From the NCBI RefSeq assembly GCF_039555335.1, contig NC_092635.1:51046052-51110051 (forward strand): a stretch of 64,000 bases of DNA, read 5' to 3'. Below the pieces are notes generated by a model. It was not told the DNA's origin and did not search any database. It saw only the letters and a list, made by a program, of their open reading frames with translations. Both the position numbers and the translations under genes were made by a program. Numbering within the stretch: the stretch's first letter is position 1; each line of letters starts with the position of its first letter. The stretch is from Amphiura filiformis (taxonomy: Eukaryota; Echinodermata; Ophiuroidea; Amphilepidida; Amphiuridae). This document shows positions 5,841 to 59,555 of this stretch, in pieces.

Positions 5841-5937
5841 GTCTAGAATTTATTTTATAATATTATCAACTTTCATGCTTATTGTCAAAGATTTCAAAAA
5901 CAAAAGCCAAGAGCTTTCCTTTTTTTCTTTCACTTAA

Positions 5938-6596
5938 GGGATCTAAAATGAGCGTTTATTGCGTTTCGACAGTATTTTTTGTGGGACATGAGAGAACCTC
6001 AGACCTATCGAATTGTATTCTGAATACGAAGCATGTCTTTCTGATATCAAATAATTTTCATTTTTGAAAATCACAATATAATACAAATTTTATGACAAAT
6101 TATAAAAATTTGATATTTTTCAAATTTTGATATATAACAGTCCTCGAAGTAAATTATATAAATCTAATGATATATTCTTAAAGTGTATGTAGCAGGGAGG
6201 AAAAGCCGACGGTCAAATGAAAATTTTGACCTTTCATATTGAAGATATGGATTTTTTTCCCAAAAGGACCAATTTTTTTTTTGTGTTTTGGGACAAAAAA
6301 TCCATATCTTCAATACGAAAGGTCAAAATTTTCAATTGATCGTCGGCTTTTCATCCCACCTACACACACTTTAAGTATAAATCATCAGATTTATAAAGTT
6401 TACTTCAAGTACTGTTAAATATCAAAAATATCAATTTTAATGATTTGCCATAAAATGTGTATTAAATTGCGAATTTCAAAAATCAAAATTATTTGATATC
6501 AGAATGACATTCTTCGTATTCAGAATGCAATTCGATATGTCTGATGTGCTCCAATGTCCCAAAATAAATACTGTCTAAACGTTCATACCCCAGCCC
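5938..6596. mobile_element. Family A palindromic element, full length, TTAA-flanked
   Basis: The element is 659 bp with TTAA on both sides (5934-5937 and 6597-6600). The two halves are long inverted repeats of each other. The arms contain GACAGTATTT, GATATCAAATAATTTT and a strong central hairpin around GAAGATATGGATTTTTT. There is no coding capacity. TTAA duplication is known for piggyBac-like and Kolobok-like transposons, and I cannot choose between them. Another 659-bp copy lies at 58079-58737; partial copies are at 1069-1290, 21901-22381 and 26598-27028. Confidence 0.8.
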
Positions 6597-6711
6597 TTAA
6601 TTGAAATAGATAAATTTCAAATTTATAAATTAGAATACCACTTCAAATGCCCAATTGTTAAAAATTACACATCTTAAGAACACCGACCAGATGGTTCATG
6701 ATTCAACTTAA

Positions 6712-16200: not shown

Positions 16201-19200
16201 GTTCTTGAAACGTTATAAACGTGTCATAAACACGTTTTGGTTTCATTTCATTCAAAATGTTACATATAAGTCATGAAAACATTTTAAAATTTTAGCAAAA
16301 TATTTTGTCCACTCTTTGATAACATGTTAAAATGTTTTGCACATAGTTTTCAAAAAGTGTTTTCTGAGCGTTATTGAACGTTTTATACTCTGTAGGAAAC
16401 GTTTGTTAGTGAATTTTGATTATTTTATGAATAACACAAAACTTAGTGCAATCAAATCTGTCAGAGACCTTGGTGTTGATGTCACATCCAAACTTGATTG
16501 GAACGACCATATTAACAGATTGGTAAAAAAGTGCAATAAAAAAAATGGGTCTCATCATGCGCACAGTTGGTTTTAAGGCACCTGAAAAAATCACCAAAGC
16601 CCTGTATAATTCATTGATCAGGAGTGATCTTGAATTTGGTAGCTGCCTTTGGAGTGGTACATCCAGACACAATAGTCAGTGTCTCGAAAGTGTTCAAAGG
16701 CGAGCTACCAAGTTCATCATGCACTATCCTGATCTGGATTATCGGGAGCGGTTGTGCCATCTGGGTATGTTACCCCTCACGCTTCGTAGAGAGCAACTTG
16801 ATATTTGTTTATTTTACAAGTCCTTGTCTGACAATTACGATCTGGATGTTTACAAGTATGTCAAGTTTTACAAGTCAGAGATTGGGCAAGACCGTCCCAA
16901 CACAAGATCAACATGTGACACCTTGCGCCTTAGGATCCCCTTCTGCAAAACGGAAGCTTTTAAGTCCAGTTTTTTAACCGCATTGTGCCAATTTGGAATC
17001 AGCTTCCCCTTAGTGTTAGGTCCTCTTCATCTTTTTCTGTTTTTAAAAGCAATGTGGTTAATTTTTTGCATTCTCATTTTGAGTTAAATTTTCGGCCGGC
17101 TGACATTTGTACGTGGGTTTCCGTATGCAGCTGTGCTATTTGTAGGGTGTCTTAATTAAATTTTTGATCTTGAGGTGGGATGGTCTTAGAGGTGATATGC
17201 ACCTGTTCATCCCAATCCTCTACACTGGTATCTCTCCTACATGTGCTGGATCCGTGGTGCGTTTTATTCACATGTATATATAATATGTCTTTACAAGCCG
17301 ATTACAAGCCGACGACGGATGTCGGCTTGTTCTGTCTCTTCTCAATTCTTCTTTCTTTCTTCTTTCCTCTGGCAACCGCAATCAACTGCATCTAGCTTCG
17401 CAAGGATTGACAGATTTCAACCAAACTTGACCTAAAAAGACCACTGGGCTAGGCCAAACCTTCCATTTGACTTTGACCTTGCTGTGACCTTTGACCTAGC
17501 TATAATGGTCAAAAATGTGATTTCACAAAAATGCTACTCCTTCCACAAATTTCATGCGATGAGGACATGGTTATATCATGTGACTCGACTTTAGTCGGTG
17601 TCTATAGGGTGTGCTCAGATAAGGGTCAAAGGTCATTAAGGGGTCATTTCGGTCAAAGTCTAAAAAATATTCAAAAAATCACTGTCTTTACAAATTACAT
17701 AGCAGAGAGTCGCCATTAGCACACATGCATCGCTACTAGCCAGGGTCTTTAGGATGCCTACAGTTTGGGGGTAAAAGGTCATTAAGGGGTTACTTCCGGT
17801 CATAAACCAAAATTATCAAAAATGTTCAAAAAAATTTTATCTCAAAATGTAAACAGACCAGAGTAATATAATCATCATACATGAATCAGTGTTCCCTGAT
17901 GCATGCATGGTATTTTTATTTAGGGGGTCAAAGGTCATTAAGGGGTCACTTCCTGTTTTTAGCTAAATAACTTCAAGAATTTTTATCTCAAGAACTAAAC
18001 ATGTTAGAATTTTTAATTATAATTAAAACAATGCATTTTGTCGGTGTACATAAGGTTTTTTTTCATTGAGGTCAAAGGTCATTAAAGGGGGTCAAAAGGT
18101 CAATCAAAATTTTCAAAAATCAAAATCCATGTATAAGTTCCGATTAAGCTGAAATTCACCAGGAATATTTCTTATGACCTCCTTAGCACAATGCAAGAGC
18201 AGTTGACCCCATCCGTAACCCAGGGGTCAAGTTATAGGGGTCAAATTGCGGCTTGTATCAGCGTCTGTTGACTCTAGTTTATACTTTTACTTTGTGCAAT
18301 ATATTTATCCATCTTTTATCTAATTTTGTTATTTGAAATTGTAACCAGTGTATGAAACCAAATAAATAAATAAATAAATAAATAACCCGACAATAAAACG
18401 TTTTCTGTAAAATGTTTTGTGTTTGCTGGGTCTTGCGCATTTAAACTTAATCTATGCGCGACATATAATTGTATGTTAAACAGAATCAGAAGTGACGAGT
18501 AGACTTTCGTTGATTGTTGACTTTAGGGAGTGGCGTAGCCAGGATTGTTTTATGAATCATATCTCCCACACCTCGTCATTTTTACTCATATGATATCTTA
18601 TTCAGATTGAACAGGTACAAGTGGACAAAATCATGGATTTGATAGAGAGCGGGAAGAAAGATGGCGCCAAATTAGAATGCGGTGGTGGTCGGCATGGAGA
18701 CAAAGGTTACTTTATTGAATCTACTGTCTTCTCTGACGTCAAAGATCACATGAGGATAGCAAAAGAAGAGGTAATGAGAAATATTTCCCAAATAGTAAAT
18801 CAGTCTGGAAATTATTGATACCAGTGTCGTCACATACCAAATTTTCTCAATCTTTGATGCACTTAGTATTTTAGTATTTTTAATAATTGTCAATTTGTAT
18901 CATTCAGATTTTTGGACCTGTACAAAGCATCTTTAAGTTCAAAACTATTGACGAAGTTGTCGAAAGAGCTAACAATACAAGTTATGGTCTTGGTGCAGCC
19001 GTATTTACGAATGATATCAACAAAGCTCTTACTATTGCCAACACAATCCAAGCAGGATACGTTTGGTAAGTAAAATGTAGGTTCTCAGTCGAAGAAAGTA
19101 TGCAGTTCATAGTAAAATGAAAAATAAAATTTTAACGTGAGTTTTGTGAACCTCAATCCATTTTATGCTAGGATATAAGCAGTCCAAAATGCTCCGATTT

Positions 19201-20938: not shown

Positions 20939-20987
20939 GCAGTGGCGCACCTAGGGTAGAGAAGGGGAAGCTGTCCCCTGTCAGAAT
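20939..20987 (+). repeat. hAT-type end remnant
   Basis: CAGTGGCGCACCTAGGGTAG resembles a hAT terminal repeat. No partner end was found. The foldback element begins a few dozen bases later. Confidence 0.4.
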
Positions 20988-21761
20988 GGTGACATCACGC
21001 TATCTCTAAGGTCCGCTATCTCTAAGGTTCGCTATCTCTAAGGTTCGCTATCACTAACGTGTAAAGTCTATGGAGATCAGAATCCCGCTATCTCTAATAG
21101 ATAAAAAGGTTCGCTATACCTAAAAAAAGGTCCGCTACTTCTAAGGTTCGATATCACTAATTTAGAATAAGGTTCGCTAGTTCTAAGGTTCGATATCACT
21201 AATTTTAAATAAGGTTCGCTATCACTAATTTAAAATAAGGTTCGCTATCACTAATTTTGAATAAGGTCCGCTATTACTAATTTATTGAAGGTTCGCTATC
21301 TCTAAGGTACGTTATCACTAATTCCAATAAAGGTCCGCTATACCTAAGGTTCGCTATCACTAATTTTGTTTCAGGTTCGCTATCCCTAATTAATTAAGGT
21401 TCGCTATCTCTAAGGTTCGTTAATACTAATTTCGATTAAGGTTCGTTATCACTAATCTTAAATAAGGTCCACTATCTCTAATTATAAATAAGGTCCGCTA
21501 TCTCTAATTTCAAATAAGGTCCGCTATCTCTAATTTTAAATAAGGACCGCTATAGCGAACCTTATTTGAAATTAGAGATAGCGAACCTTATTTAAAATTA
21601 GAGATAGCGAACCTTATTTAAAATTAGAGATAGCGAACCTTATTTGAAATTAGTGATAGCGAACCTTAGAGATAGCGAACCTTAGAGATAGCGAACCTTG
21701 TAGATAGCGGACCTTATTTAAAATTAGAGATAGCGAACCTTAGAGATAGCGAACCGTAACC
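20988..21761. mobile_element. Satellite-like foldback element, copy 1
   Basis: About 560 bp of short monomers (AAGGTTCGCTATCTCTAA, AAGGTTCGCTATCACTAATT and variants), followed after a centre at 21549-21556 (GCTATAGC) by about 210 bp of the same monomers inverted. The outer ends GGTGACATCACGCTATCTC and GGTTACGGTTCGCTATCTC form imperfect inverted repeats. The flanks GTCAGAAT (20980-20987) and GTGAGAAT (21762-21769) agree at 7 of 8 bases. A near-identical copy lies at 34253-34982, and its perfect 8-bp flanks fix the element's borders. The element has no coding capacity and its superfamily is unknown: 8-bp duplications occur in hAT and P, and 8-9 bp in Merlin. Confidence 0.85.
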
Positions 21762-21900
21762 GTGAGAATACTTTCCTCATTGACCTTATTAAATAGCAAG
21801 CTGAATATTTTGGCGCACTTGGGACACTATAACGCTGTAACAAGGCCTTAGTAAAGCAGTACGGAAACGCTTAAATATGCATTTTAGGGGCTTTACCTGC

Positions 21901-22381
21901 TATTTAACAGTACTCGAAGTAAACTTTATAAATCTAATGATTTATACCTAAAGTGTATGTAGGTGGGATGAAAAGCCGACGATCAATTGAAAATTTTGAC
22001 CTTACGTATTGAAGATATGGATTTTTTTCCCCAAAACACTAAACAAAAATAAGGTCTTTTTGGGAAAAAATCCATATCTTCAATATGAAAGGTCACAATT
22101 TTCAATTGACCGTCGGCTTTTCCTCCCTGCTACATACACTTTAAGAATATATCATTAGATTTATATAATTTACTTCGAGGACTGTTATATATCAAAATTT
22201 GAAAAATATCAAATTTTTATAATTTGTCATAAAATTTGTATTATATTGTGATTTTCAAAAATGAAAATTATTTGATATCAGAAAGACATGCTTCGTATTC
22301 AGAATGCAATTCGATAGGTCTGAGGTGCTCTCATGTCCCAAAAATACTGTCGAAACGCAATAAACGCTCATTTTAGATCCC
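21901..22381. mobile_element. Family A element, left end missing
   Basis: Starts inside the left arm (TTTAACAGTACTCGAAGTAA) and continues through the central hairpin to the right terminus AGATCCC, followed by TTAA at 22382-22385. Confidence 0.75.
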
Positions 22382-22762
22382 TTAAGTTGCCAGGATTGCC
22401 ACTAACTGTAAGCTACATATTGCACCTTATTTCAAAACATTATAGTAACATAAGATCCCTTTTTAAAATATCTACGTTTGGTTGTTTTTCTGTCATATTT
22501 ACTCTATCCGTTTGTCTAACCGTTTAAACGGACCACAATCCGGTCGGTAAACCGTGTAAACGTATGTAGCCTATTTAAAAAAAAGTTGTACATTTTAATT
22601 ACTGTTGCTTCTATTGAACAGCCAGGGACATAATTGACATAATTAACATGCATTGCTAGCTGTTCAAAAGGAGATACAAAAACGATAACATTGCCAAGCA
22701 TGATAAGCACGATAAGAGTAGATAAAAAACATACGTTTTTTTTTTGTAACAGTCCTGATGAA

Positions 22763-29408: not shown

Positions 29409-30062
29409 AGAATTCCAATTCTATAAAGGAACACATGTATTAGAAAATTAAATCACAAGTCATACAATACAAACTATGCCACTTTTTTTTTTATCTGCGT
29501 CAATAATAGAATATCGATTTCAATCGAATTGAATACATCGCTCCATTTTGAGTTTGTAGTTCACCACTGAGCGATCCAGCGATCGATTGCTAGCCAATCA
29601 GATAGAACTCCTTTTCTTTCTTTCGGTGAAATACTACTCGCCCGTCGCTCACCAACGAAGTATTAAGTTTATATTTATAACATAGGGTGTCGACACTGTC
29701 TCCTGTGACTCAATATGGATGTGGTTGGAATCCTCGAAGTTGCCAAAGGTCTATGACCCGATTATTACGTCACACTTCAATGACCCGATTATTACGTCAC
29801 ACTGCTCGATGGGGTCGGATCATTTCGCTGACGAAGGCAAAAGTTGAAAATTACGGAGGTAAATATTTTTGTATAGGATCAAGAGTTAAAATCTTTCTAT
29901 ATATGGATTGCCAATACAGATGGACATTCATGCTAAGATACAACACTGGGTTTTTTCAGAGTGTCTTTTCAAGGTGTCTGCAGATGTGTCTGCAGACAGT
30001 CCAAACAAAAGAATGTTTATACCAAATGCTTATAGATTGACAAAAAATCCTTACTGTCCTTT
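29409..30062. other. Spacer and 3' region of GPCR A1
   Basis: A short direct repeat ATGACCCGATTATTACGTCA occurs twice at 29751-29795. From about 29935 the sequence matches the region just beyond GPCR A2 (GTCTGCAGACAGTCCAAACA). Confidence 0.55.
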
Positions 30063-31114
30063 CTATATTTCCTTCATATCTATGTCACTATGTGACTGGG
30101 AGACTGGATTAGACACCTTTGTCGCAGAATCATCAAGTGGAACTTCAAAGAGCGTATTTTCTTTGTATTTTCGTGATGATCTCAGTGAGGACGGAAGCTG
30201 TTGGCAAATAGCTTCTCGAAAGTTTTTGTTGACAGACAAATAGATAATTGGGTTGACGCATGAGTTGGCAAATGCAAGTACCACGAAGAATCGGTAGAGG
30301 TTACCGAACAAGTACTTGAAGGGTACTAATCCCAAATTGAAAGCAAGGAATGCAAATTGATCAGGAGACCAACAAATGACGAATGATACAATGACAATGA
30401 GCAGCATAATGATGACACGACGACGAGCTCGAAGAACAGACATTGTGGCTAGACATTTTGGACTCCCTTTTTCTTTTGAAAGATCACGTCCCTGTGCTTG
30501 AAGAATTTGAATCGTTCGAACATTTACAATAAGCATAATGATCACCGGTATAAGGTATTCAAGAACGAAAAGGAATGTTCCGATGAAGATCTGGAAACCC
30601 ATACTGGGGAACTCTACAATACATTGTCCTTGATGGAGATGTTTAAACACGTAACCGATGCTATTGATAACGAATGAGGCCAACCAGATGCTGACGATAA
30701 TGATTCTTGTGACTTTCAAAGTGAGTAAGCTTCTAGAGCGCAATGGATAGCGAATAGCGATAAAACGTTCAACTGACACAGCTGTGAGGGTAAAAATAGA
30801 AGCAACATGGACACCCACATGATGTGTGACGAATATACTACTTTACAGTAGAAGTGTCCAGCTGTAGTGTTAGGAACTCGCGACAATAGTGGATGCGGAA
30901 TGATACAGATGGATGTGATGAGGTCAGCTATAGCAAGAGCTGCGATGAGTGTGTTAGTCGAAGATTTGATAAGCTTACGCGATCGAAGATAGACATGGAT
31001 AACGACGGAGTTCCCAATGATGCCTATGATGGCTAGAATGAGTTGAAGGATTAACCGCCAGTCCCACTGAATTGGAACCAAGTAGATTGGTTCTGACATA
31101 GACGTGTTTTCCAT
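30063..31114 (-). pseudogene. Class A GPCR A1, peptide-receptor-like, frameshifted copy
   Basis: Paralog of GPCR A2 (37761-38825), with near-identical sequence through TM1-TM3 (MENTSMSEPIYLVPIQWDWR, LAIADLITSICIIPHPLL) and TM4-TM7 (VERFIAIRYP, CWSPDQFAFLAF, NSCVNPIIYL). Near 30806 one base is missing relative to A2, so the N-terminal frame (31114 to about 30806) and the remaining frame (about 30818 to 30063) do not join. The stop at 30063-30065 also comes four codons earlier than in A2, because ATG GAG has become ATA TAG. All other receptor motifs are kept, so the loss is recent or the single-base gap is an assembly error. Confidence 0.8.
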
Positions 31115-31679
31115 TATAAAGAAGATAATGATGGCAGTAAAATCCTATAAAAAAGAACACAAAATCATAATACGCTTCGGACCTAAACAGCCAGAAATCA
31201 GGAAGAGCAGTAAGCGGTTTTTTAAAAAACCATATTGTCAAAAACAAGTACATATATCATATTATTATTCGCATAGACCGTCAATACTCGGGGTCAATAT
31301 CATTAGTCAACTTGAATCTTCATGAGCGATCAGTGGGTGGAATTTAGAGATGTTTGAACCCAAGACCTCTGTATTACTAGTATTATCGAGTCTGGTGTAG
31401 GTATAGTTGGAAGTATTTGTATTGACCGGGATATTGACCGTCTGTGCAGAAAGTGTAGCTTTATTTGATATTATGTAGGGCTACTGATTAGGATTCGTTT
31501 AGATCTTACTTTAATACCATGCTATTGTCAATGTGGTTATTTCTGATCTTCATGTTGATTCAAACGAAGCGCCTAAGATAGAGTCGTTTGTCTCGAAGTG
31601 TGACTAATAACCCACTTGACCAAAACAAAAGGGAGCAGTTGCTTACACATGCGCCTTTGTGATCGCGCATTGATACATA
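31115..31679. other. 5' flank of GPCR A1, nothing recognised
   Basis: Upstream of the A1 ATG. No clear promoter element was found. Confidence 0.4.
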
Positions 31680-32462: not shown

Positions 32463-34030
32463 TTAACAATGAGTCGTCGTCGTCGTGGTCCTATGGGTCA
32501 TGACTGACCCTTTGTGACCCTGTTGATGATGGTATTCCAGCAGCTTCTGTCTTGAGCCAGACGGTGGGCTGCGACGAGAGAAAGGCCTGTTAATTGTTTA
32601 ATTCCATCAGTCCATCTAAGCTTCTGTCTACCTCTTCTACGACTGCCTTCTATGTGACCTTGCATAATTATCTTCTCAATGCTGTCACCATCTCTTCTAG
32701 AAATGTGGCCAAAATACGCCAGTTTAAAACGATCTATTTTTTGGGACACGGAAGCATGGTCTCCAATTTGGTTTCTTACAAATTCGTTGGTCTTATGTTC
32801 TTTCCACGATATTCTCAGCATCTTCCACCAGCACCACATTTCAAACGCCATGATCTTTTTCTTATCTGTCATTCCAACCGCCCACGTTTCACAGCCATAC
32901 AAGGCAATCGGGAAAACCAGAGCATCCATAATATGAATCTTGGTAGCTTTAGAAATACCTCTGTCTTTCCATATATCTGTCAACGCAATTGCCGATGATC
33001 TTGCCATGGCTAGGCGTCTTCTGATTTCCCGTGAACTGCCCCCTGCATTGTCTATTAGTGATCCCAGAAAGTTGAAAGTGTCAACTTGTTCCACATCTTC
33101 TCCATTCACCTTCACTTGCTGATTTGTATCTCCTCCACAGATCATTATCTTTGTTTTCTTGACATTGAGATGCAGCCCAAATTCCTCACTACTTGCTTTT
33201 ACTCTGTCTATAAGGTCCTGAAGCTCATCTGATGACTTTGCAATAAGGGTGGTGTCGTCAGCGTATCTGAGGTTGTTAATCTTTCGACCTCCGACTGACA
33301 CCTGACCTGTAACACCAACAAATGCTCTCCTCATGATGTACTCTGCATATATGTTGAAAAGGTACGGTGACAGAATGCATCCTTGACGAACGCCTTGGCC
33401 AATAGTGAACCACTCACTGTCTCCACTCTCTGTTCTAACGGTGGCTTCTTGGTTGTGATATAATGAGCAAATCAGGTCAGTCACATGCTCGGAGAACCCC
33501 ATTTCTTTCATTATTCTCCACAGCTGCCTATGCTGCACACAATCAAATGCCTTTGAGTAGTCAATGAAGCAAAGGTATAATGGTTGCTGGAATTCCCTAT
33601 TTTCTCCATTAAATTCCTCAAATTGCCAATTTGGTTTCTTGTCCCTCTTCCCTTCTAAAGCCAGCCTGCTCTGGTGGTAATTCATTCTCAAGATGATTTC
33701 TAATTCTCTCAGCAATGATATGGAGGAGGACTTTACTAGCATGTGAAATTAAGGCGATGGTGCGGTTGTTAGCACATTCCCTTGTGTCTCCCTTCTTTGG
33801 TAAAGGTAGGAATACAGCCTTTTTCCAGTCCTCTGGCCATTCTTTACTGTGCCAAATCTTGTTACATAGTCTGTGAATTATTGCAACACCTTCCCCTTCA
33901 CTCTCTTTCAACAGTTCTGCCTGGATGTTGTCAATTCCTGGTGATTTACCATTCTTGAGCCTCTTCATTGCTTGGTTAACCTCACTCAACAGGATCTCTG
34001 GTTCACTGTCAGTGTCTTCGCTTTCGCGAA
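32463..34030 (-). mobile_element. 5'-truncated non-LTR retrotransposon (RTE-like)
   Basis: The minus strand encodes the reverse transcriptase in order: NGKSPGIDNIQAELLK, then LCFIDYSKAFDCVQHRQLW, GQGVRQGCILSPYLFNIYAE, LRYADDTTLIA (YADD active site) and the C-terminal GRQKLRWTDGIKQLTG region, ending KGQS and stop at 32498. The first 120 residues (33618-33989) and the rest (from about 33640 down) are in different frames, so one frameshift is present. No endonuclease domain remains. A short (ACG)n stretch follows the stop. The RTE assignment is from general motif style and is tentative. Confidence 0.85.
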
Positions 34031-34252
34031 GAGAGACCTTTCTTAAACAAGAAACAATGAGAGATCTTTCTTAAACCTCGTTGACTTGGGGATGATTTGA
34101 AATGACCGCCAATTATGACTGTTTGATATTTATTGCCAGCAATGTGGAAAAAGAGACACATGTAAAAACGTAAAAAGCTATAATTTTGTTGAAGGAGCAA
34201 AGTTTAACAAACCATAACCCCGCTTCTGGATATCGTTTGAAGTCAAATGATA

Positions 34253-34982
34253 GGTGATCCCGCTATCTCTAAGGTCCGCTATCTCTAAGGTTCGCTATCT
34301 CTAAGGTTCGCTATCACTAACGTGTAAAGTCTATGGAGATCAGAATACCGCTATCTCTAATAGAGAAAAGGGTTCGCTATACCTAAAAAAAGGTCCGCTA
34401 CTTCTAAGGTTCGATATCACTAATTTAGAATAAGGTTCGCTAGTTCTAAGGTTCGATATCACTAATTATAAATAAGGTTCGCTATCACTAATTATAAATA
34501 AGGTTCGCTATCACTAATTTTGAATAAGGTCCGCTATCACTAATTTATTGAAGGTTCGCTATCTCTAAGGTTCGTTATCACTAATTCCAATAAAGGTCCG
34601 CTATACCTAAGGTTCGCTATCACTAATTTTGTTTCAGGTTCGCTATCACTAATTAATTAAGGTCCGCTATCTCTAAGGTTCGTTATCACTAATTTCGATT
34701 AAGGTTCGCTATACCTAAGGTTCGTTATCACTAATCTTAAATAAGGTCCACTATCTCTAATTGGAAATAAGGTCCGCTATCTCTAATTTCAAATAAGGTC
34801 CGCTATCTCTAATTTTAAATAAGGACCGCTATAGCGAACCTTATTTGAAATTAGAGATAGCGAACCTTTTTTAAAATCAGAGATAGCGAACCTTATTTAA
34901 AATTAGAGATAGCGAACCTTATTTGAAATTAGTGATAGCGAACCTTAGAGATAGCGAACCTTAGAGATAGCGAACCGTAACC
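34253..34982. mobile_element. Satellite-like foldback element, copy 2
   Basis: Near-identical in monomer order to 20988-21761, including the only non-monomer insert (ACGTGTAAAGTCTATGGAGA). It is flanked by a perfect 8-bp duplication AAATGATA (34245-34252 and 34983-34990). The palindrome centre is at 34828-34835. It is 44 bp shorter than copy 1, mainly because one monomer pair is missing in the right arm. Confidence 0.88.
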
Positions 34983-34990
34983 AAATGATA

Positions 34991-37760: not shown

Positions 37761-38825
37761 TTAATGTCCTTTCTCCATTTCCTTCATATCTATATCACTA
37801 TGTGACTGGGAGGCTGCATTAGACACTTTTGTCGCAGAATCATCAAATGGAACTTCAAAGAGCGTATTCTCTTTGTATTTTCGCGATGATCTCAGTGATG
37901 ACGGAAGCTGTTGGCGAATTGCCTCTCGAAAGTTTTTGTTGACAAATAAATAGATGATTGGGTTCACACAGGAGTTGGCAAAGGCTAGCACCACGAAGAA
38001 TCGGTAGAGGTTACCGAACAGGTACCTGAAGGGTACTAATCCCCAGTTAAAGACAAGGAAGGCAAATTGATCAGGAGACCAGCAAATGACGAATGATACA
38101 ATGACAATTAGGAGCATGATGATTACACGACGACGAGCTCGAAGAACAGACACGGTGGCAAGACTTTTTGGACTCCCCCTTTCTCCTGAAAGATTACGTC
38201 CTTGTTCTTGAAGAATTTGAATTGTTCGAACATTGGCAATAAGCATAATGATCATTGGTATAAGGTATTCAATCAAGAAGAGGGATGTTCCGAGGAAGAT
38301 TTGGAAACCCATACTGGGGAACTCTACAATACATTGTCCTTGATGGAGATGGGTAACATAGTAACTGAAGGTATTGATAATGAATGCAGCCAACCAGATG
38401 CTGACGATAATGATTCTTGTGACTTTTAAACTGAGAAGGCTCCTATAGCGCGATGGATAGCGAATAGCGACAAAACGTTCAACTGACACAGCTGTGAGTG
38501 TAAAAATGGAAGCAACAATTGATACCCACATGATATTTGACGAATATACTACTTTGCAGTAGAAGTGCCCAGCTGTTGTGTTAGGAACTCGCGACAATAG
38601 TGGATGCGGAATGATACAGATGGATGTGATGAGGTCAGCTATAGCAAGAGCTGCGATGAGTGTGTTGGTGGAAGATTTGATAAGCTTACGCGAGCGAAGA
38701 TAGACATGGATGACGATTGAGTTCCCAATGATGCCTATGATGGCTAGAATGAGTTGTATGACTGGTCGCCAGTCCCACTGAATTGGAACCAAATAGATTG
38801 GTTCTGACGTAGATGTGTTTTCCAT
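37761..38825 (-). CDS. Class A GPCR A2, peptide-receptor-like, intact
   Basis: Seven-transmembrane receptor of 354 residues in a single coding exon. GN in TM1 (34-35), LAIAD in TM2 (60-64), the Cys90-Cys165 disulfide pair, ERF at 116-118 in place of DRY, CWSP in TM6 (248-251) and NPIIY in TM7 (288-292) are all present, followed by NFREAIRQQ helix 8 and a Ser-rich tail. N-glycosylation sites lie at the N-terminus and at NTT (82-84). ATG 38825 is chosen over 38867 because paralog A1 starts at the same MENTS. This motif set fits beta-branch neuropeptide receptors, but I cannot name the ligand. The frame is intact, unlike the copy at 30063-31114. Confidence 0.87.
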   Translation of the reverse strand: MENTSTSEPIYLVPIQWDWRPVIQLILAIIGIIGNSIVIHVYLRSRKLIKSSTNTLIAALAIADLITSICIIPHPLLSRVPNTTAGHFYCKVVYSSNIMWVSIVASIFTLTAVSVERFVAIRYPSRYRSLLSLKVTRIIIVSIWLAAFIINTFSYYVTHLHQGQCIVEFPSMGFQIFLGTSLFLIEYLIPMIIMLIANVRTIQILQEQGRNLSGERGSPKSLATVSVLRARRRVIIMLLIVIVSFVICWSPDQFAFLVFNWGLVPFRYLFGNLYRFFVVLAFANSCVNPIIYLFVNKNFREAIRQQLPSSLRSSRKYKENTLFEVPFDDSATKVSNAASQSHSDIDMKEMEKGH

Positions 38826-38960
38826 TGTAGATAATAACAGCAGAAGATTCCTATGAAAAAGAAGCAATCAACAAACAGAAAACAATATTATACGAGTTAA
38901 AGCTTAATTGGTAAGGGATATGGAAGAGTGGTAAGTATTTTAACAAGGCAAAGGTAGATT

Positions 38961-49127: not shown

Positions 49128-49551
49128 AGAAGAAATTCTACAATTTTATTTTGTAAGTTAACTGAACACAATTGTAGGATTTCTGACCTAACATTTTGGG
49201 AGATCGAAGAAGAGAATTCTCACCTAAGGCAAGCTCAAGTCTCGAACCCTCGCCGTCCGACATACACATGCACAGCGCAACGTCTTTACCGCTCGGCCAT
49301 TTCGCCCTCTTATATCACCGAATCTCATCTACTCGTATTCTAAGGTATTCAAGAAAGTAAATTATCTTTATGAAAGATAATAATGAGTGAAGACGTTTAA
49401 ATTTCTTTTTTAATTTCATTGTAGGCAGTACGGAAAATATAAATAATTTACTATAGACAATAGTTTGAGTATTTGGGTAATTCAATAATGAATGCTCTTT
49501 CTTCTTTTTTTTCCTTACAGAAACCCGTCAATAGTTATATTTGCCAAGAAA

Positions 49552-50607
49552 ATGGAATTTTCGGAGGGAAATTGTACAACAACTCCACCAGCCATTACTG
49601 ATATCCCCAAAGTTTTAGTGATGACTGTAGTAGTTATAATGGTATTTGTGGCCATAATTGGAACCCTGGGGAACACTCTCGTCATTTGCGCTGTTGTGGG
49701 GCATAAGAAACTTCGAAGTATTCATAATATCTTTATTATCAATCTGGCTGCTGCTGACCTGATCGTTACTGTGATCATTATTCCATTCGCTATTGTCGCA
49801 GCGATAAAAGGGGCATTTCTCACCGAACACGATGCACTTTGTGAGACCGTAGGATTTTTTGTTGATCTTAGCTGTGTGACATCAATGATTTCCATCGCCA
49901 ACATAGCTTTAGATCGGTACATTTGTATTTGTCACAAGAACGTCTATCAAAAGATCTACAATAAATTAACTGTTCCATTTATGGTGATGAGTATGTGGCT
50001 CTACTCGTTTCTTGTAGATTTACCAAATTTTGACTTTGTTGGTTGGGGAGCACATGGCTTTGATCCGAAGACACTAATTGTGTGTTCATTTTCGGCATTG
50101 AAGGCAGGAGAATTGGGTTATATTTGGTTTCTATTTGTATTTTCGTGGGGAGTATCGTTTACTATCATATGTTTTTGTTATTCGCGTTTGTTTTTGTTTG
50201 TCCGTCGCAGCCGGAAATCGCTTAAACAAAATCGTCGAATATCTTCGTCAAGAAAGTCCTCAACTGGAATCAAATCGGCAGACAAACGGTTACTAAAAGT
50301 TCTCGCTGTCATTATCATCTTATTTGTTATCATGTGGGCGCCATTTTGCCTCATTAGCTTGCTTTACACATATGTTGAAGTACCTTCTTGGCTGTATTTC
50401 CTATCGGGTCATTTGTGTGTATCAAATAGTTCCATCAATTTCCTTGTTTATGCATTTAATAAAGACTTTCGCGAAGGTTACAAGCTGGTTTTAAAGAAGT
50501 TTACTTGCGATAAAGAAGACACAGATGGAAATGCACGAGTTTGTATGACCATGATGACGAACATAAACACTGATTCGACATCTCAAGGTAGTCACAATAA
50601 AATATAA
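49552..50607 (+). CDS. Melatonin-receptor-like class A GPCR B1
   Basis: Predicted 351-residue seven-transmembrane receptor, plasma membrane. GN (40-41) in TM1, NLAAAD (64-69) in TM2, the Cys97-Cys178 pair, DRYICICH (121-128), LPNFDFVGWG in extracellular loop 2, WAP (262-264) in TM6 and NFLVY (296-300) in TM7. The CICH after DRY, the LPNF loop and a TM7 motif without Pro resemble melatonin receptors (NRY-x-x-ICH, NAIVY), though here DRY is canonical. TM5 lacks the usual Pro. ATG 49552 is chosen because a strong acceptor (tttttccttacag, ending 49520) separates it from the in-frame ATG at 49492, and paralog B2 starts equivalently. Glycosylation is likely at Asn7. Ligand unknown. Confidence 0.87.
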   Translation: MEFSEGNCTTTPPAITDIPKVLVMTVVVIMVFVAIIGTLGNTLVICAVVGHKKLRSIHNIFIINLAAADLIVTVIIIPFAIVAAIKGAFLTEHDALCETVGFFVDLSCVTSMISIANIALDRYICICHKNVYQKIYNKLTVPFMVMSMWLYSFLVDLPNFDFVGWGAHGFDPKTLIVCSFSALKAGELGYIWFLFVFSWGVSFTIICFCYSRLFLFVRRSRKSLKQNRRISSSRKSSTGIKSADKRLLKVLAVIIILFVIMWAPFCLISLLYTYVEVPSWLYFLSGHLCVSNSSINFLVYAFNKDFREGYKLVLKKFTCDKEDTDGNARVCMTMMTNINTDSTSQGSHNKI

Positions 50608-51259: not shown

Positions 51260-52448
51260 GATACAGCAGTGCTTGAGTCAAAGTCAAGTTTATGAGTCCG
51301 GTAGATTTCGAATCCATTGCAGTCTGAGCCCAAGTCGGTTGCTATCCGTGGTGTGGACTCACAATCTGTTCCTGTGCTTTCTGGAGTTCCCCAGGGCTCT
51401 GTCCTGGGGCCTCTGTTGTTTCTTGTCTATGTTAATGACTTGTGTCTTTCTTCCTTTTCTTTAAACAGTTCTCTTGTTCTTTATGCAGACGATACTACTC
51501 TCTTCAAGCCTATTTCTGCTCCTGATGACTTGGTTGATTTCCAATCCGACATTGATTCCATCCATTCTTGGTGCTCCCTTAATCACCTTTCTGTCAATTC
51601 CTCCAAAACAAAAGTCATGGTCATTTCCACTAAGAAGGACCCTTTTCCGGATCTCAATCTCACTCTTAACAGCCTGCCTATTGAACGTGTGTCATCTGCG
51701 AAATTTCTTGGTGTCTGGCTGTCTGACAAGCTTTCCTGGAATCTTCACATTGATAACATATGCAGAAAAGCTCGCAAAATCATCGGCTTCATTCATAGAT
51801 CTTTCCAATCAGCCCTTCAGCATCCGTCGTTCTTTGTACTTGGCCTTGGTTCGCCCCATTCTGGAGTATGGTTGTACTACTTGGCATCCTCTTAACATAA
51901 CCCTTACCAACCGTCTTGAGTCTACCCAAAGATTCGCCTGTCGTGTCATTCTTCAGTCTTGGAACCTCTCCCATGAGGACCTTCTATTGGATTCCGACCT
52001 GCCTCTTCTTAGTAAGCGTCGTGATGTTGCTTCTCTGTGTCACTTATTTAAAATCTTTGCCAATCTTTGTTCTTCTCCCAACCCTTTCCAGCCTCATCCC
52101 AGACCTGGTCTACGGAACCTCAATTCCCGCGCTGTTCAAGTTCCTTTCCGCCGGCTTTCATTGTCCCAGAGATCATTTTATCCGTTTGCCTCCTCCATCT
52201 GGAATTATCTCCCTGAAGCTATGGTCAATGCTTCTTCCCTCCAGGCCTTCAAATTGGCCATCCAGTCCCACCTCCTCTAACCAGTTCACATAATTTTATG
52301 TTTTGTTTTATTTTATTCTGTATTGATTATATGTATTTTCTAGTAATGTTTCTGATTTCAATGTTAGGGCAATCCTTCAATTTATTGTGTAATCAATATT
52401 GGATCTGCCTGGCCTTGTGCCAAATGTTATAAATAAAAAAATAAAAAA
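51260..52448 (+). mobile_element. 5'-truncated non-LTR retrotransposon (CR1/Jockey/L2 group)
   Basis: Reverse-transcriptase motifs in order: SGVPQGSVLGPLLFLVYVND, LYADDTTLF (YADD), LNHLSVNSSKTK and FLGVWLSDKLSWNLHIDNIC (frame from 51317). After a frameshift near 51820 come SLYLALVRPILEYGCTTWHP, LESTQRFACRVIL and a C-terminus ending at 52280. The 3' end is an A-rich ATAAAAAAATAAAAAAA tail. The endonuclease and the N-terminal half of the RT are absent. AAGTC-rich host sequence lies on both sides. Confidence 0.85.
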
Positions 52449-54143: not shown

Positions 54144-54934
54144 GTATTCAAGTTAGAATCTCTACTATTTCAACAATTCTAATTTGCAAATTGAAAGAGA
54201 ATAACTTGAAAGCAGCTTATGAAAGAAACGACTCAAGCGGTTATGGGCACCAAATAAGCATACTTCCCGAGTAAGCTACTAGTTTATTAAGTTGATGAGT
54301 ATAAGTGGCGATTTTGTGATTTCCAAATCTAGGTAAGTTATTACATAAGCTTACATAGACTACTAAAGTTACGCAGCTAGTATTCTTGTTTATTTACTCG
54401 GCAACTTACCTTCTTGGTCTCTAGCAGATTTATTCTGCTCCGTTCTGATACTGGCGTACCATAACACAAATCTTTTTGTCTTTATCTGCTAGGCGTAATC
54501 TTCTAAGTATTCTTAATGACAAGACAAATATATCAAGTAACCTCTATTCCCAGAATCACTCCATTCGTAAATAAAATAAAATAATGGAGCGATAAAGCAC
54601 ATTGGCGTTACGTCCGAAGATGTGTGTTACGTCCAAATATCATATGGCTATACCAACTCTGTTACGTCTGGTAATGGCCGGGGATTAGAACACTCGTAGT
54701 GAGGCCATTAGTATTCACGAATGTTCAAATCCATGGCCATTACCCTTTACGTAATGTACAATGTACCATGATTTGGTACACATGTCCGAATATGTTCTAT
54801 AATAATGTTTAATTGCTTTGAGAAACGAAAGCGTTGAATGATGTTTTACTAGTCTAAATCATTAATAAACGTTTCTTCTTCCTTTTCTTCTTTTTAAATA
54901 CAGGAAACCGTCGACAGTGGTATATCCCAAGAAA

Positions 54935-55975
54935 ATGGAATCATCGGAAGGGAATTATTCAACATCTCCAACAGCCATATCTGACATCCCCACAGCTTTA
55001 GTGACGACTGTGGTAGTTATCATGACTCTTGTGGCCATAATTGGGACACTCGGGAACTCCCTTGTTATTTTGGCTGTTGTAGCCCACAAGAAACTTCGAA
55101 GTATTCATAATATCTTTATTATCAATCTTGCTGCTGCTGACTTAATTGTTACTGTGATAATTATTCCCTTCGCCCTTGTCGGAGCTATATACAAAGGTTC
55201 ATTTCTCACCGAATTCGATGCAATTTGTGAGACCGTAGGAGTATTGAGTGTTCTTAGCTGTGCTACGTCAATATTTTCCATAGCTAACATCGCCTTAGAT
55301 AGATACATTTGTATTTGTCACAAGAACATCTATCCCAAGATCTACAATCGGTCAACTGTTCCATTTATGGTGATGGGCATGTGGCTATACGCATTTCTTA
55401 TAGATTTACCAAATTTTGACTTTGTTGGTTGGGGAAAACATGACTTTAACCCTGAAGTACGTGCATGTTCGTTTTCTGGAATGAAGGCTGCTGAATCTGG
55501 ATATATTTGGTTCCTTTTTGTATTTGTGTGGGGGATATCGTTTACTGTCATATGTTTTTGTTATTCGCGTTTGTATTTGTATGTCCGTCGCAGCCGGAAA
55601 GCTGTTACGCAAAATACAGTAACTTTGTCAAGAAAATCCTCAACGGGAATCAAACCAGCTGACAAACGGCTCCTGAAAATTATCGCTGTTATTTTTATTT
55701 TGTTCGTCATCATGTGGACTCCGTTTTGCATCTTTGCTTTGCTAAATACACATGTTGAAATACCTTTCTGGTTGTATTTCTTACCCGGTCATTTGTGTCT
55801 TTCAAACAGTTCCATAAATTTCCTTGTTTACGCATTTAATAAAGACTTTCGTGAAGGTTACATATTGGTTTTAAAGAAATTTACTTGCGAGAAAGAGACC
55901 CAAAAGGGAAACACATGTGTTAATATGATGAACATAAACACTGATTCTACATCTTTAGTTAGTCATAATGAATAA
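54935..55975 (+). CDS. Melatonin-receptor-like class A GPCR B2
   Basis: Tandem paralog of B1, 346 residues. It shares the N-terminal pattern MESSEGNYSTSPTAISDIP, GTLGNSLVI in TM1, NLAAADLIVTVIIIPFA in TM2, DRYICICHKN after TM3, LPNFDFVGWG in loop 2, IMWTPFC in TM6 and SINFLVYAFNKDFREGY at TM7/helix 8. A splice acceptor (aaatacag, ending 54903) lies upstream, as in B1, so the CDS is in the second exon. ATG 54935 is the first in-frame ATG after the acceptor and matches B1. The difference from B1 is concentrated in the N-terminus, loop 3 and the tail. Loop 3 is basic (RRSRKAVTQN). Ligand unknown; melatonin or a related amine is only a family-level guess. Confidence 0.88.
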   Translation: MESSEGNYSTSPTAISDIPTALVTTVVVIMTLVAIIGTLGNSLVILAVVAHKKLRSIHNIFIINLAAADLIVTVIIIPFALVGAIYKGSFLTEFDAICETVGVLSVLSCATSIFSIANIALDRYICICHKNIYPKIYNRSTVPFMVMGMWLYAFLIDLPNFDFVGWGKHDFNPEVRACSFSGMKAAESGYIWFLFVFVWGISFTVICFCYSRLYLYVRRSRKAVTQNTVTLSRKSSTGIKPADKRLLKIIAVIFILFVIMWTPFCIFALLNTHVEIPFWLYFLPGHLCLSNSSINFLVYAFNKDFREGYILVLKKFTCEKETQKGNTCVNMMNINTDSTSLVSHNE

Positions 55976-57735: not shown

Positions 57736-58078
57736 GATCGATTCCGGTGATCGATTTGACAGCTCTTTACTTGTTACGTAAGAACTGGATCGCAGACTCT
57801 GAAAACATGTAGCGCCCAGTTCTGAATTCACAAGTCAAGAATCATCAAATCGATCAACGAATTTTATCATTATGCTGAACAAGGATGTAGCTTTAACAAC
57901 CGAAAAATTCAGGTGACCAACTTTTATTTTCTGTGAACAAAAGTTCAATCCTTCATTTAAACATAAGATAATTTTTCGCATGAAAAATTGACAAAATAGG
58001 AAAATGATGTATTAGAAACGTTTTCTATTTCTATTCTCAAAATCGATGGTCAATGTTTATTTTTCAGGCCAATCTTAA

Positions 58079-58737
58079 GGGAAGGGGTATGAACGTTTGG
58101 ACAGTATTTATTGTGGGACATTATAGCGCATCAGACATATCGAATTGCATTCTGAATACGAAGAATGTCCTTCTGATATCAAATAATTTTGATTTTTGAA
58201 ATTCGCAATGTAATACACATTTTATGGCAAATCATTAAAATTGATATTTTTGATATTTAACAGTACTTGAAGTAAACTTTATAAATCTGATGATTTAGAC
58301 TTAAAAGTGTATGTAGGTGGGATGAAAAGCCGACGATCATTTGAAAATGTTGACCTTTCGTATTGAAGATATGGATTTTTTCCCAAACTACCAAAAAAAA
58401 TTAGGTCCTTTTGGGAAAAAAATCCATATCTTCAATATGAAAGGTCAAAATTTTGAATTGATCGTCGGCTTTTCCTCCCAGCTACATCCACTTTAAGAAT
58501 ATATCATTAGATTTATAAAATTTATTTCAAGGACTGTTATATATCAAAAATTTGAAAAATATCAAATTTTAATAATTTGTCATAAAATTTGTATTATATC
58601 GTGAATTTCAAAAATTAAAATTATTTGATATCAGAAAGACATGCTTCGTATTCAGAATGCAATTCGATACGTCTGAGGTGCTCTCATGTCCCACAAAAAA
58701 TACTGTCGAAACGCCATAAACGCTCATTCTAGATCCC
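58079..58737. mobile_element. Family A palindromic element, full length
   Basis: It is 659 bp, the same length as the copy at 5938-6596, and has TTAA on both sides (58075-58078 and 58738-58741). The left arm starts GGGAAGGGGTATGAACGTTT and the right arm ends AGATCCC. Confidence 0.8.
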
Positions 58738-58741
58738 TTAA

Positions 58742-59197: not shown

Positions 59198-59555
59198 AAA
59201 ATACGAACAGTTTACCAACCCAAAGTGTTACAATTAAACATGACAACAAATAAACACAAATCCCGACCAGCACACAACCCAACTTGAAAAAAAAAGGCAA
59301 GGAAATGTGCCAGCATGGGAATCGAACACTCGACCTTCCGATCTCAAGTCGGACGCCTTATTCATTAGGCTACCAGCTTCCACTGATAAACGGTAGTTAA
59401 AACTGGGTCTGATGTTAGCAGTCGTGGGTTCGATTCCCATGCGGGCACATTCACTAGCTTTTTTTTCAAGATGGGTTGTATGCCGGTCGGGATTTGTTTT
59501 TATTTGTTGTCATGTTTAATTGTAACACTTTGGGTTGGTAAACTGTTCATTCCTT
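59198..59555. repeat. Head-to-head pair of tRNA-derived SINEs (inverted repeat)
   Basis: The left arm (59198-59380) is a minus-strand SINE. Its head reads GGTAGCCTAATGAATAAGGC (A box) and GTGTTCGATTCCCATGC (B box). The right arm (about 59415-59555) is plus-strand, with GTGGGTTCGATTCCCATGCG. Both continue outward through CAAG-x-TGGGTTGTGTGC-like bodies to GTAACACTTTGGGTTGGTAA. A clover-leaf can be drawn for the left head, but its acceptor ends do not pair. Confidence 0.7.

Follow-up and report, generated by a model that had tools for sequence, protein, structure and literature searches.

Two satellite-like arrays of short repeats lie in the 64-kb stretch of DNA analysed here (the window). The question raised by this locus is whether these arrays arose in place, by growth or by duplication of a larger region, or whether they are copies of an element that moves by itself. 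Our data indicate that they are very probably copies of a non-autonomous, non-coding foldback DNA transposon that moves by cut-and-paste.

Anatomy of the two elements

The window contains two copies of the foldback element. Copy 1 (20988..21761, plus strand, 774 bp) starts with GGTGACATCACGC and copy 2 (34253..34982, plus strand, 730 bp) starts with GGTGATCCCGC, and both end with GCGAACCGTAACC. The first bases are GGTGA and the last bases are GTAACC in both copies, and the left end of the elements reads GGTGA...GCTATCTC. Each element is composed of repeated units. Most of these have a length of 16 bp (GGTTCGCTATCTCTAA and variants) or 26 bp; the 26-bp unit consists of the 16-bp core and an AT-rich spacer of about 10 bp. 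The long arm of copy 1 (20988..21551, plus strand, 564 bp) has 23 units of at least 16 bp, mostly 16 or 26 bp, with an insert in unit 4. The long arm of copy 2 (34253..34830, plus strand, 578 bp) has 24 units of at least 16 bp, which repeat the order of copy 1 with one additional 16-bp unit. The short arms are read on the minus strand. That of copy 1 (21552..21761, 210 bp) has 9 units of at least 16 bp, and that of copy 2 (34831..34982, 152 bp) has 6 and is 58 bp shorter, so that the number of repeats varies in both arms. The insert TAACGTGTAAAG is common to the two copies, at 21055 and 34318, as are the unit order along the array and the centre CCGCTATAGCG, where the long and short arms meet head to head with zero spacer. 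The first-pass annotation had placed two elements at these coordinates and had described a shared order and a unique insert, all of which was confirmed. It had also given the inverted arm as 170-210 bp, which holds for copy 1 (210 bp) and not for copy 2 (152 bp).

The units appear to be confined to the two elements within the window. A 27-base probe of two units, with up to 3 mismatches allowed, matched the window 19 times, and all 19 matches fell within the two elements; the mean was 0.00 matches in 100 shuffles. In the predicted single-strand fold, 183 of the 210 short-arm bases of copy 1 and 137 of the 152 short-arm bases of copy 2 are paired with the long arm. The fold energies were -184.7 kcal/mol (copy 1) and -136.9 kcal/mol (copy 2), compared with about -65 for 20 mononucleotide shuffles per element, which are a weak control. 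By this predicted pairing, both elements have the long inverted arms of foldback elements. The outermost 10-13 bp of the left end (GGTGACATCA or GGTGATCC) show poor or partial agreement with those of the right end (GGTTACGGTT), and the units just inside the tips agree well between the two ends. The tips are asymmetric, GGTGAC.../GGTGATC... on the left versus GGTTACGG... on the right.

Target-site duplications and candidate transposases

Copy 2 is flanked on both sides by AAATGATA (34245..34252 and 34983..34990, plus strand), which is a perfect 8/8 duplication. Copy 1 has GTCAGAAT on the left (20980..20987, plus strand) and GTGAGAAT on the right (21762..21769, plus strand), which match at 7/8 positions at the same boundary as in copy 2. 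In 200,000 draws of random window site pairs 700-800 bp apart, an 8/8 match occurred at a rate of 4.5e-5 and a match of at least 7/8 at 6.3e-4. Because choosing the boundaries after the fact was to be avoided, they were left floating in a joint search of both copies, with left and right boundary offsets of +/-12 and duplication lengths of 6-11. The joint optimum was 8 bp at offsets 0,0, the ends given above, with a score of 13. When the outer flanks were replaced by random window pieces (n=300), the best score was 9 and 0/300 controls reached 13. A 9-bp solution scored 12, because a perfect CAAATGATA is possible in copy 2 alone; the match in copy 1 is 7/9. The perfect and the 7/8 duplications noted at first pass thus withstood the controls, and both elements have a target-site duplication at defined ends, as is expected of a foldback element.

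A transposase was searched for in the window itself. Once sequences built from fewer than 14 residue types had been removed, 152 stop-to-stop stretches with a minimum length of 67 codons were listed. Of these, 130 plus 7 were scanned; the 15 outside the Pfam scan lie inside known reading frames or simple repeats, on the strand opposite to them, or next to them. Pfam detected no transposase (E 0.001 and E 0.01) in these 137 of the 152 listed stretches, and neither DDE_Tnp_IS1595 nor a MULE transposase was among the matches; such a partner would normally lie elsewhere. Weak matches to Orf78 (E 0.0036) and CT47 (E 0.0048) were taken as chance.

The type of transposase was considered from the ends and the duplications. 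Elements of the hAT superfamily have ends of the CA(G/A) type and an 8-bp duplication. The duplication length fits, but the ends here are GG...CC. The ends of the P superfamily start with CA and its duplication is 7-8 bp, and the GG...CC ends do not agree with this consensus either. Merlin elements are described with a terminal 5'-GG-3' and 8-bp or 9-bp duplications; imperfect TIRs and internal tandem repeats have been reported among them, and one family has highly imperfect TIRs (PMC8101967). Both copies have GGT...ACC ends and an 8-bp duplication. The combination of GG...CC ends and an 8-bp duplication fits Merlin best, with Mutator/Phantom as a serious rival. We tentatively suggest that the mobiliser may be a Merlin-type transposase. 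Of the hAT-, P- or Merlin-type mobilisers proposed at first pass, the last is thus favoured by the ends, and the first two are not.

It is also possible that the same anatomy is moved by a different transposase, and that the elements are of the Mutator/Phantom type, as is Tm1. Tm1 arms are described as having variable numbers of units of about 14 bp. Short, asymmetric motifs form its termini beyond the inverted repeat, and its duplications are mostly 9 bp, with 8-10 bp in 45 of 53 complete elements (PMC3169594). Mutator-like elements are reported with duplications of 8-11 bp (PMC6446971), and the Mutator / Phantom duplication is usually given as 9 bp. The tips are asymmetric here as well, and the perfect 9-bp CAAATGATA that is possible at copy 2 would suit Mutator. 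However, the joint optimum was 8 bp and not 9, copy 1 reaches only 7/9, the GG...CC ends are as in Merlin, and highly imperfect TIRs have been reported in a Merlin family too. A mobiliser from another or unknown superfamily is somewhat less likely.

Flanks and divergence of the two copies

If the two arrays were part of a larger segmental duplication, without movement of their own, their surroundings should also be alike. The region does hold duplicated genes, such as the 7tm receptor stretches at 30051-31157 and 37761-38863, which are 89.6% identical. However, similarity between the copies ends at the element boundary on both sides, and the 3-kb flanks gave no significant match (best blastn E 0.87 on the left and 0.24 on the right). 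No longer duplication joining the surroundings of copies 1 and 2 was present among the self-comparison matches listed; this comparison used pieces longer than 60 bp with query starts up to about 31.7 kb, and it covered the surroundings of both copies. A segmental duplication, which the first-pass annotation had named as a finding that would refute transposition, was rejected because the 3-kb flanks are unrelated, and we consider it highly improbable.

The divergence between the copies was compared with that within the arrays. Over 714 aligned bases, the copies differ by 19 substitutions (7 transitions and 12 transversions) and three indels, of 2 bp (left tip), 16 bp (long arm) and 58 bp (short arm). 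The larger indels correspond to whole units (16, and 58 = 16+26+16). Paired long-arm units differ by a mean of 3.5% between the copies (23 pairs), whereas the difference among the units of a single long arm is 17.8% in copy 1 and 17.3% in copy 2. Judged from these sequence differences, the long array predates the separation of the two copies, having been built and internally diverged beforehand. Units within one short arm differ by 5.6% (copy 1) and 4.2% (copy 2). They are thus nearly as alike within an array as are the long-arm pairs between copies, and this test bears on the long arm alone.

These values also bear on a reading in which two satellite arrays grew independently from a common monomer and acquired direct repeats at their edges by chance. 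The units are satellite-like, their number varies between the copies, and the short-arm units are nearly uniform, all of which would suit such growth. However, the unit order, the insert and the centre are common to both copies, units within one long arm are about five times further apart than are homologous long-arm units of the two copies, and such a duplication appeared in 0/300 controls. Independent growth was rejected by the difference between 3.5% and about 17-18% unit divergence, and is hardly credible. A Helentron-type element with central satellite repeats, as in oyster, is very doubtful and was also rejected: satellite-like arrays on mobile elements are documented for Helentrons, but Helitrons are described as making no target-site duplication, and here there are 8-bp duplications and an array that extends to both element ends in inverted orientation. 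The earlier proposal that the arrays transposed as discrete units is supported by the shared ends, the 8/8 and 7/8 duplications, the unrelated flanks and the homology of the long-arm units.

Several other features were observed around the two copies. The sequence adjoining copy 1 on the left (20940-20987) is CAGTGGCGCACCTAGGG, which we take to resemble a hAT-type end, so copy 1 may be nested in an older element. An exact 8-base reverse complement of the CAGTGGCGCACCTAGGG tip occurs at a single place in the window, at 1882, and none was found near copy 1. Another dispersed self-complementary repeat family occurs at 5934-6600, 58075-58741 (reverse), 21898-22387 (reverse) and 1079-1294. Its members are 88-96% alike in the longest self-comparison matches among the matches listed, and the two longest start with TTAAGGGATCT and end with CCCTTAA. 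This family looks like a TTAA-targeting non-autonomous DNA transposon. Its copy at 21898 lies about 140 bp to the right of foldback copy 1, with one end missing in the stretch read. Reverse-transcriptase-like reading frames are located at 32498-34070 (minus), a short way to the left of copy 2, 51305-52280 (plus) and 16527-17087 (plus). Pfam RVT_1 matched 32498-33748 and two further scanned stretches, and 16527-17087 was assigned by appearance only. The gene content of the window suggests an animal host: it comprises 7tm receptors, fragments of aldehyde dehydrogenase divided among several stretches, C2H2 fingers and reverse transcriptases. The duplicated receptor reading frames mentioned above belong to the rhodopsin family, and the one near 30-31 kb is broken across two frames; a second receptor pair (49492-50607 and 54869-55975) is alike as judged from translations only. 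At 59310-59379 (minus) there is a weak tRNA match in Rfam, with 32 bits where the cut-off is 29, and none by ARAGORN, and this is perhaps a tRNA-derived repeat.

Taking the two arrays as copies of a foldback transposon, a mechanism can be proposed. The inverted arms are built from 16-bp units, many of them extended to 26 bp by an AT-rich spacer of roughly 10 bp, and are joined head to head without a middle domain. A transposase made elsewhere and acting in trans would recognise the ends GGT...ACC, excise the element and reinsert it through an 8-bp staggered cut. In Galileo, the THAP domain of the transposase has binding sites within some of the repeats that make up the long TIRs (PMC3688188). 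By analogy, the repeated units here are plausibly putative transposase binding sites, and would probably provide multiple sites for one enzyme. The number of units might change through slippage or unequal exchange. A more specific reading, possible though doubtful, is a Merlin-superfamily foldback reduced to little beyond end-recognition units: almost all of its body would be an array of 16-bp putative transposase sites with spacings of 16 and 26 bp, arranged head to head and lacking a middle domain, and it would spread ready-made inverted satellite seeds through the genome. If it is true that a Merlin-type transposase moves the element, this would be one more superfamily with foldback arms, which are thought to have arisen independently.

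Relatives and comparison with known foldback elements

Searches for sequence relatives were made in several collections. In IMG/VR viral contigs, each of five unit or insert patterns gave 0 matches. In bacterial and archaeal genomes, 7 loci (L001-L007) matched in one scan, and the array was present in 0/7 of these by motif count and short excerpts; they carry just two to five copies of the 9-base core in other sequence. Three of the contigs belong to one Treponema MAG (L005 1177-1215, L006 2127-2150 and L004 2306-2329) and each repeat a 15-bp unit two or three times; this unit is TTCGGTTAGCGAACC in L005 and L006 and a variant in L004. The units are flanked by the inverted sequences GGAACCTCTGGAAAC / GTTTCCAGAGGTTCC in L005 and L006, again with a variant in L004. 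This looks like a small dispersed bacterial hairpin repeat, and beyond the 9-base core it showed no sign of kinship to the foldback element. The 10- or 11-base unit strings found in published text looked, among the matches listed, like chance occurrences as judged by title. The absence of sequence relatives says little, because the collections searched hold mainly viral and prokaryotic DNA. Our guess, from a sequence search of that scope, is that the element is probably a new family of a known foldback kind.

Foldback transposons are described as an established class in Drosophila, rye, Arabidopsis, sea urchin, Chironomus and nematodes, and members that combine tandem-repeat arms with 8-10 bp duplications are already established (PMC4079207, PMC3169594). 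The first-pass view that a palindromic array moving as a transposon is unusual is therefore not upheld. The element is ordinary in kind, and its behaviour is already known from animals and plants. It is a compact, well-bounded example of satellite-like repeats travelling as a transposon, and the differences between its two copies, both single bases and gains or losses of whole units, show how such arrays evolve.

Members of the Merlin superfamily resemble the element in their GG ends and 8- or 9-bp duplications, and internal tandem repeats as well as imperfect TIRs have been reported among them, but the word 'foldback' is absent from the text of PMC8101967, and no transposase was found in the window here. 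Galileo, of the P superfamily in Drosophila, has long, internally repetitive arms in which the unit number differs between arms, but it is described with a duplication of 7 bp, units that are larger (in one subfamily about 210 bp) and a known P-type transposase (PMC3688188, PMC3573991). Tetris of Drosophila virilis is likewise a non-autonomous foldback element with tandem-repeat arms, 8-10 bp duplications and a link to satellite DNA, and its transposase is reported as not found; unlike the element described here, it has a middle domain, units of about 220 bp and arms that reach 1,735 bp (PMC4079207).

Tm1, of the Mutator/Foldback family in root-knot nematodes, shares variable numbers of short, mostly 14-bp, tandem arm units, unequal unit numbers between arms, asymmetric short terminal motifs, 8-10 bp duplications and non-coding derivatives. 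It differs in its usual 9-bp duplication, its tips (CGGTTAA / CCTACCC) and its unit sequence. Middle sequences occur in some members and there is a known coding relative, whereas the arms meet directly here (PMC3169594). The TU elements of the sea urchin Strongylocentrotus purpuratus are also foldback elements of a marine animal, and were compared by description. These elements, which Liebermann is said to have described in 1983, reportedly have outer arms of tandem repeats of about 15 bp and 8-bp duplications, which would make them especially close to the element described here.
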